Source: an uncultured bacterium (lineage in GTDB: Bacteria > Cyanobacteriota > Vampirovibrionia > Gastranaerophilales > Gastranaerophilaceae). From it: a stretch of 42,398 nucleotides of DNA. Every line of letters begins with the position of its first letter. Position 1 is the stretch's first letter. Position numbers and translations under genes: made by a program. The notes under the pieces were generated by a model. The model ran no database searches, had not been told where the DNA came from, and saw only the letters and a program-made list of their open reading frames with translations. Shown here piece by piece: positions 12,791 through 13,703 of this stretch. The stretch spans positions 1 through 42,398 of the forward strand of contig CACZSH010000011.1 in the NCBI GenBank assembly GCA_902783785.1. The letters are read 5' to 3'.

Positions 12791-12805
12791 AATATATGAT
12801 GGAAA

Positions 12806-12828
12806 TAGGTTTGGATTTCTACCCTAAC
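12806..12828 (+). repeat. REP-like palindrome, unit 1 (degenerate)
   Basis: A diverged unit reading TAGGTTTGG, then TTTCTACCCTAAC. It has the TAGG head and the arm layout of the better units but several stem mismatches. The following tail (ACAACAAAAC) matches tails of other units. Confidence 0.6.
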
Positions 12829-12855
12829 ACAACAAAACAAAAAAACAAAACGTGT

Positions 12856-12879
12856 GTAGATTGGGTTTTACAACCCAAC
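12856..12879 (+). repeat. REP-like palindrome, unit 2
   Basis: GTAGA head, then TTGGGTT (12861-12867), loop TTAC, AACCCAA (12872-12878), followed by the tail CGCAACTCAACA. The stem is seven perfect base pairs. Confidence 0.85.
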
Positions 12880-12911
12880 GCAACTCAACAAAACGATAAG
12901 ACGAAATTTAG

Positions 12912-12934
12912 GTAGGTTTGGGTTTTACCCCAAC
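12912..12934 (+). repeat. REP-like palindrome, unit 3
   Basis: GTAGG head, then TTTGGG, loop TTTTA, CCCCAAC, with one bulge in the stem. It lies 26 bases before the transposase start and may overlap its promoter. Confidence 0.8.
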
Positions 12935-12960
12935 AAAGTGTTTATTATAAAATATAAATC

Positions 12961-13491
12961 ATGAATTACAAAAGAGTTTTTATTCCTAATAGTTATTTAC
13001 ATTTAATAATTGTTTCCTATAACAGAAAATTTATTTTTATCGAAAACATACAACTTTTAAGAAATTCATTCAAAAACGCACAAAAATACTTTAAGTTTGA
13101 AATTATTGCTATTTGCGTATTACCTGACCATATTCATTTAATTTTGAAACCTGAAAATATAAATGAATATCCGAAAATAATTACATCCGTAAAATATTAT
13201 TTTTCAAGAAATTATAATGTTGGGGTAGAAACCCCAACCTACGGATATGTAAATAAAAAAGAAAAAGGTATATTTCAACGCAGATATTATGAACATACAA
13301 TTTGCTCACAAGAAGAATTGAATACTCATATAAATTATATTCACTATAACCCCGTAAAACATGACTATACAAAATCAGTAAAAGATTGGGAATATTCTTC
13401 GTTTCATAAATTTGTAAAAAACAATTTGTATGATATAAATTGGGGTTCTTCTGAAGATATTAAAAGTTTTGAAGATTTATATTTTGAATAA
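12961..13491 (+). CDS. REP-associated tyrosine transposase (RAYT, IS200-like Y1 HUH family)
   Basis: A 176-residue Y1 transposase-fold nuclease that cuts and joins single-stranded DNA hairpins. The HUH motif is in VLPDHIHLIL (H57, H59). The family block GIFQRRYYEHTI (about 103-114) and NTHINYIHYNPVKH (121-134) carry the candidate catalytic tyrosine (Y126). RAYTs differ from IS200 transposases by being single-copy and flanked by short GTAG-headed palindromes, exactly as here, with units on both sides and no IS ends. Length is within the range of compact RAYTs. Residues 86-95 (NVGVETPTYG) are encoded by a REP palindrome in reverse orientation. No Shine-Dalgarno sequence is visible; TATAAA at 12946-12951 ends nine bases before the ATG. 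It is inserted between the pheS operon and uvrB. It appears intact. Confidence 0.92.
   Translation: MNYKRVFIPNSYLHLIIVSYNRKFIFIENIQLLRNSFKNAQKYFKFEIIAICVLPDHIHLILKPENINEYPKIITSVKYYFSRNYNVGVETPTYGYVNKKEKGIFQRRYYEHTICSQEELNTHINYIHYNPVKHDYTKSVKDWEYSSFHKFVKNNLYDINWGSSEDIKSFEDLYFE
13219..13242 (-). repeat. REP-like palindrome inside the transposase gene (reverse orientation)
   Basis: GTTGGGGT (13219-13226), loop AGAA, ACCCCAAC (13231-13238), then CTAC, which is the GTAG head read on the minus strand. All flanking units face the other way. The eight-pair stem is perfect and the reading frame stays open through it. Confidence 0.88.
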
Positions 13492-13505
13492 TATTGAATA
13501 ACTTT

Positions 13506-13528
13506 GTAGGTTGGGGTTTTACCCCAAC
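13506..13528 (+). repeat. REP-like palindrome, unit 4
   Basis: GTAGG head; GTTGGGGT (13510-13517), loop TTT, ACCCCAAC (13521-13528); tail GCAACTCAATAG. Perfect eight-pair stem, 15 bases after the transposase stop codon. Confidence 0.9.
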
Positions 13529-13558
13529 GCAACTCAATAGACAAAAACCAAAATTTGA

Positions 13559-13582
13559 GTAGGTTGGGTTTTCCAACCCAAC
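13559..13582 (+). repeat. REP-like palindrome, unit 5
   Basis: GTAGG head; GTTGGGTT (13563-13570), loop TTCC, AACCCAAC (13575-13582). Perfect eight-pair stem. It forms a pair with unit 4 across a spacer of 30 bases. Confidence 0.9.
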
Positions 13583-13595
13583 AACATTATAAGTT

Positions 13596-13616
13596 ATGAA
13601 TTATAAAAGGAAGTAG
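13596..13616 (+). other. Six-codon echo of the transposase start (MNYKRK then stop)
   Basis: ATGAATTATAAAAGG here matches the first five codons of the transposase (ATGAATTACAAAAGA at 12961) and encodes the same MNYKR. The frame then ends at a TAG that is part of the GTAGG head of unit 6. The match is short; a deleted second transposase copy is the suggested origin. Confidence 0.4.
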
Positions 13617-13636
13617 GTTGTGGTTTATACCCCAAC
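13613..13636 (+). repeat. REP-like palindrome, unit 6
   Basis: GTAGG head, then GTTGTGGT, loop TTAT, ACCCCAAC with one stem mismatch; tail GCAACAAAACAA, like the tail after unit 1. Confidence 0.85.
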
Positions 13637-13664
13637 GCAACAAAACAAAAAAACCGAAACTTGC

Positions 13665-13688
13665 GTAGGTTGGGTTTTCCAACCCAAC
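13665..13688 (+). repeat. REP-like palindrome, unit 7
   Basis: GTAGG head; GTTGGGTT (13669-13676), loop TTCC, AACCCAAC (13681-13688), identical in stem and loop to unit 5. It ends 15 bases beyond the uvrB stop codon, where such hairpins could also protect the uvrB mRNA 3' end. Confidence 0.9.
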
Positions 13689-13703
13689 TAATCAAACAAG
13701 AAA

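Follow-up and report, generated by a model that had tools for sequence, protein, structure and literature searches.

The RAYT gene of the window (the whole stretch of DNA analysed, 42,398 nt) carries a perfect REP unit inside its own coding sequence, inverted relative to the REP units that flank the gene. This internal copy of inverted orientation, and not the direct array around the gene, is the unusual part of the locus. RAYTs with flanking REPs are known as REPtrons (PMC3733652) and, taken as a whole, the locus is probably best explained as a mobile REPtron that carries its own REP arm, matched to the upstream copy, and that is prone to self-inactivation.

The RAYT gene and the REP units

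The contig that makes up the window (C11) belongs to a 1.78 Mb genome of 97% completeness. The RAYT locus has on one side an 88-aa gene that follows pheS and on the other the 3′ end of uvrB, and the closest relatives of the RAYT were found in Candidatus Gastranaerophilales (Melainabacteria) from rumen and gut. The features of the locus are:

12791..13703, no strand: 913-bp block containing all of the REPs and the RAYT gene, missing from the same-genus genome G252
12805..12828, + strand: REP U1, degenerate, ATAG head (covariance model match, poor folding)
12856..12879, + strand: REP U2, GGG stem subtype (covariance model, folding)
12912..12934, + strand: REP U3, ~50 nt 5′ of the start codon (covariance model)
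12961..13491, + strand: RAYT/TnpA_REP gene, 176 aa (NF047646, PF01797, AlphaFold model, fold match to 4er8)
13219..13242, − strand: embedded REP U8, GTAGGTTGGGGTTTCTACCCCAAC on the minus strand, the best covariance match in the genome
13506..13528, + strand: REP U4, GGGG stem, TTT loop (covariance model, folding)
13559..13582, + strand: REP U5, GGG stem, TTCC loop (covariance model, folding)
13613..13636, + strand: REP U6, GGGG type, one stem mismatch (covariance model, folding)
13665..13688, + strand: REP U7, GGG stem, TTCC loop (covariance model, folding)

An earlier note, made from the sequence by itself, had reported an intact HUH/Y1 transposase here, and this was borne out: the 176-aa protein (12961–13491, + strand) scored 128.9 bits against the NCBIfam REP_Tyr_transpos model (NF047646), above the cut-off of 80, and PF01797 was also matched. 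The HUH motif is H57-I58-H59 and the Tyr motif is YIHYNP, with Y126. As a Y1 HUH transposase with a Y---NP motif and with GTAG-headed REP hairpins on its flanks, the protein is a RAYT. Assigned by motifs, using DHLH, YIHYNP and an HUH–Tyr distance of about 58–67 residues as the criteria, it is subclass 2.2-like (E. coli type), having DHIH, YIHYNP and a distance of 66; it deviates in the I of the HUH motif and in an F that replaces the W before Q106. Membership of subclass 2.4 was rejected, as NH[IFV]H and YIxNNP are absent and DHIH and YIHYNP are found instead, although the protein does have one trait of that subclass, an in-frame REP between the HUH and Tyr motifs (residues 87–94). A RAYT tree also placed it apart, with full support, from 2.4-like cyanobacterial proteins, represented by only two references assigned by motif.

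Seven REP units flank the gene, three on its left and four on its right, every one in the + orientation, and two subtypes alternate around the RAYT (A-B-A / A-B-A-B). The units and the alternation agree with the earlier note; the steps are ~53 nt and the period is ~107 nt. The 107-nt period was not recovered by Tandem Repeats Finder, probably because the copies are too diverged. Other parts of the description applied to some of the units only. The head of U1 is ATAG and not GTAG, and the GCAAC tail thought to be conserved is present only in U2, U4 and U6, with ACAAC in U1 and no such tail in U3, U5 or U7. The perfect units outside the gene are U4, U5 and U7. When folded as single-stranded DNA, U2, U4, U5 and U7 gave good hairpins (−6.0 to −8.1 kcal/mol), U3 and U6 gave weak hairpins with one stem mismatch each (−3.4 and −3.2 kcal/mol), and U1 folded no better than shuffled sequences. 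The direct orientation had been singled out as distinctive. It was rejected as a hallmark, as direct tandem REP arrays were found in relatives too (L142, L110 and G150:C23) and the conserved pair is inverted. The direct + strand array around the window RAYT probably reflects local amplification of REPs.

A genome-wide REP family had been predicted, but only eight copies were found, all at the RAYT locus. The earlier note had named such a lack of further copies among the results that would refute it. A covariance model, built from the eight units themselves and thus favouring their scores, gave exactly eight matches (E 4e-7 to 3e-5) and, beyond them, no match with an E-value below 2.8, and a search with the 24-mer pattern, allowing 3 mismatches, detected no copies beyond these eight in the 1.78 Mb genome. 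Eight strong matches inside 0.9 kb, with none elsewhere in 1.78 Mb, are far beyond chance. Relatives do carry this kind of hairpin in dispersed form, at none to 276 copies per genome, and the window units are therefore REPs and not a local accident. The locus is a RAYT with cognate REPs, hence a REPtron. Dispersed cognate REPs, the usual RAYT trait, were seen in several relatives and not in the window genome. However, since RAYT genes have been reported in species without GTAG repeats (PMC3733652), dispersal is usual but not required for a RAYT. The inverted pair formed by U3 and U8 belongs to the transposase gene and is not dispersed as a REPIN would be. Overall, the observation made in the earlier note was partly confirmed and its interpretation partly supported.

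The 276 REP-like copies are in G048, yet this genome has no RAYT match with the window query, and its sole Pfam Y1 match looks like an IS200 transposase. G186 and G114 (L139, L140 and L141) contain dispersed, REPIN-like inverted REP pairs ~163 nt apart, which have a similar spacer with TGCAC motifs and sometimes two different REP types at their ends. No transposase sequence was seen by eye in these dispersed 163-bp pairs.

The embedded REP and its upstream partner

U8, which the earlier note had missed, is a perfect unit with a stem of −8.4 kcal/mol. Read in frame, it supplies RAYT residues 87–94 (VGVETPTY), between the HUH and Tyr motifs. A chance hairpin in the coding sequence was rejected, as the 24-mer is perfect, is kept in relatives and shows synonymous constraint, with synonymous codon conservation of 0.89/0.90 inside the REP versus 0.68/0.65 elsewhere. 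The internal REPs of relatives are always in the same loop and always antisense. Their frame is constant in types T1 to T4 (VGVETPTY, VGQVCPTY, VGLVNPTY and VGLVKPTY), and for the T1 and T2 REPs other orientations and frames are also open for reading, yet unused. A fifth type is present in L083, and L106 has a longer and quite different internal REP (GGHADALPTL) that matches the REP upstream of the L106 gene. In L015 and L110, several REP units in frame enlarge the RAYT loop; L015 has four of them in tandem.

The AlphaFold model of the RAYT (pTM 0.81) is of low confidence only at the ends and in the REP-encoded loop, where pLDDT falls below 50 at residues 92–96, within the loop carrying the REP-encoded peptide. 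The best PDB match of the model is the E. coli TnpA_REP–REP complex 4er8 (TM 0.78/0.83). The distance of this loop from the catalytic residues explains why the insert is tolerated.

About 70 RAYT loci of the order were collected, and two architectures were seen among them. Both have a REP(+) ~50 nt before the start codon. In one, a REP(−) is located 5–50 nt after the stop codon and in the other, which includes the window, the REP(−) is inside the gene. The upstream and internal REPs were of the same stem-loop type in 34 of the 36 loci having both (T1 13, T2 13, T3 5, T4 2 and T7 1), a count that excludes the window, whose U3 has diverged too far to fit the type patterns, and for which the type of the L106 internal REP was assigned by hand. 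In one exception, L064, the internal REP has decayed, and the match to the upstream REP is a new one, inverted and downstream; the other, L110, contains a number of inserted REPs. The heads of the two copies are alike in 29 of 33 loci, counted from the type table. Both copies have a GTCG head in six loci (L014, L065, L066, L067, L069 and L082) and a GTAA head in L055 and L063.

As the loci are related, they provide only one or two phylogenetically independent contrasts, and the type matching therefore has limited statistical weight. The best tree has three changes in the presence of the embedded REP, but a single origin gave an AU p of 0.51 and repeated independent origins were dropped. A single ancient insertion is thus compatible with the data, and inheritance could explain part of the matching.

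Mobility and breakage of RAYT units

In G252, which belongs to the same genus, uvrB adjoins the 88-aa gene, stop codon against stop codon, with AAAGAATAA followed directly by TTAAACC, and the whole 913-bp block (12791–13703) is therefore extra in the window genome. Gain is the simpler reading because loss would need to be exact, and the block was probably gained by the window genome since its split from G252. The empty site in G252 showed no target-site duplication.

Blocks of ~600–630 bp recur in pairs of loci of different genomes at 86–95% identity but with unrelated flanks, which indicates that the RAYT gene moves. In G122, there are two copies that are 99.7% identical and differ in their right flanks. 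The left edge of the shared blocks is the head of the upstream REP, and U3 occupies the position of this conserved left end. The right edge, from the comparison of G031 with G248, is 44 nt past the stop codon, at ...TGTTAATTTACA. A conserved sequence of ~44 nt 3′ of the stop codon, ending near TTTACA and without a REP, is found in L009, L010, L011, L058, L059 and L062. The mobile unit may be recognised at its right end by way of this sequence; inspection of alignment A3 by eye for a right-end hairpin did not establish one. The window copy is without the conserved right end and has a + REP closely after the stop codon, as do L055, L072, L076, L077 and L084. Given the missing right end and the stem mismatch in U3, the window copy may be inactive.

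Most partial RAYT genes of the window lineage end at the internal REP. Residues 80–100 hold 12 of their 15 internal edges, a tally based on partial tblastn matches of at least 58% identity that were judged to be off contig ends, and set against a crude uniform expectation. As tblastn edges gravitate to variable loops anyway, more weight belongs to the junctions read directly, about ten in number, from half-genes chosen with a bias toward breaks close to the internal REP. The 5′ half L124 ends inside the hairpin, and L126, L127, L128, L129, L130, L133 and L134 are 3′ halves beginning in or beside the hairpin. In L130 and L133 the initial REP has a head at both ends (a fused double-foot REP), as expected if the DNA from the upstream to the internal REP had been deleted. 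Double-foot REPs can arise via central deletion of an inverted pair, according to Quentin et al. (PMC6006769).

L125 (G169:C5) consists of the 5′ half of a T2-type RAYT and the 3′ half of a T1-type RAYT, ~1 kb apart and both broken at the internal REP. In L135 (G040:C7), a double-foot REP that belongs to another type (GTAGGTCAGGCATTGCCTGACCTAC) breaks a flanked-type RAYT just past the loop.

Interpretation and known systems

Under the favoured explanation, the locus is a mobile RAYT unit (REPtron) that entered the space between two convergent genes. Judging from homology and fold, what the RAYT recognises and cuts is most likely its cognate REP, folded as a single-strand hairpin and with GTAG as the guide; REP cutting has been measured with the E. 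coli RAYT and with others (PMC8266576). The partner REP, which is downstream and inverted in other RAYTs, would here be located inside the coding sequence, in a flexible loop, and the gene would thus carry one arm of its own REP pair. The matched types suggest that the upstream (+) and internal (−) copies are kept alike by shared enzyme recognition and/or recombination. The inverted pair encloses the first half of the gene, and processing or recombination there would split it, making the element prone to self-inactivation, as the fragment junctions also suggest. We infer that the RAYT brings this breakage about, as opposed to general recombination or deletion of the hairpin. A further step, put forward tentatively and somewhat doubtful, is that the embedded REP is a working substrate and that the transposase cuts its own gene. 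Enzyme and target would then be locked together, any change of specificity would have to reach internal and external REPs jointly, and the element would be self-limiting, since its gene would be split by its own action into half-genes and REPIN-like pieces.

The internal REP might instead be a harmless passenger, the result of an old in-frame landing with a tolerated peptide, and its likeness to the flanking copies a product of shared ancestry or neutral gene conversion. This appears unlikely. A single origin is compatible with the tree, the loop is flexible and peripheral in the model, in-frame REPs sit in other genes of other species (PMC3733652) and the internal copies of L062, L064 and L075 have decayed, but synonymous codons are far more conserved within the REP than elsewhere, changes of type (T1/T2) and of head appear in both copies, and the orientation is always antisense. 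It is quite improbable that the pair acts at the RNA level, with the upstream and internal REPs pairing in the mRNA over ~25 bp around the start codon and curbing transposase synthesis. Long-range pairing is predicted, with z of −5.5 for L009 and −3.5 for the window, and IS200-type transposases have RNA-level control (PMC3733652), but perfect inverted repeats yield such a fold automatically and each REP can fold alone too. An RNA-level role is also possible within the main explanation, which it would not exclude.

A different question is whether the window locus is a dead relic, its RAYT and REPs being inactive remnants. The genome is without dispersed REP copies, the right end is missing, and U1, U3 and U6 are degenerate. 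We regard this as a rather unlikely account, as the ORF is intact with both catalytic motifs present, the internal REP and U4, U5 and U7 are perfect, and the block is missing from G252 and so was probably gained since the split.

A mobile REPtron with its own REP arm bears on how RAYTs and REPs stay matched and on whether RAYTs are domesticated or mobile. The RAYTs examined here act as mobile units whose left and right ends and empty site can be defined. They also provide dozens of natural enzyme–substrate pairs in which the substrate is written within the enzyme's own gene, and the natural heads (GTAG, GTCG and GTAA), with at least five stem-loop types, make recognition rules readable from sequence.

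Embedded REPs are known as a kind. In the sections of Quentin et al. (2018, PMC6006769) drawn on here, in-frame REPs in RAYT genes, between HUH and Tyr, are called unique to subclass 2.4, which resembles the window locus in this respect as well as in its flanking REPs and loop position. That subclass has NH[IFV]H and YIxNNP, whereas the window RAYT has the 2.2-like DHIH and YIHYNP. Within those sections we found no description of matching between internal and flanking types or of breakage at the internal REP and, in the literature drawn on, which includes that source in part, none of embedded REPs outside 2.4 or of such matching and breakage elsewhere.

The E. coli REPtron (4er8; Corneloup et al. 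2021, PMC8266576) belongs to the same RAYT family by sequence and fold, and also has GTAG-headed hairpins beside the gene. However, 4er8 is without the loop insert that the window RAYT has, and E. coli REPs have a bulged stem whereas the REPs here have perfect stems and 3–4 nt loops. The upstream and internal copies form an inverted pair like that of REPINs or REP dimers (Bertels and Rainey 2011, PMC3116915), except that one arm of the window pair is transposase coding sequence. Rickettsia palindromic elements and other intragenic REPs (Di Nocera et al. 2013, PMC3733652) are likewise palindromic repeats in frame, but those repeats are found in unrelated host genes, while here the repeat is in the gene of the enzyme presumed to act on it.
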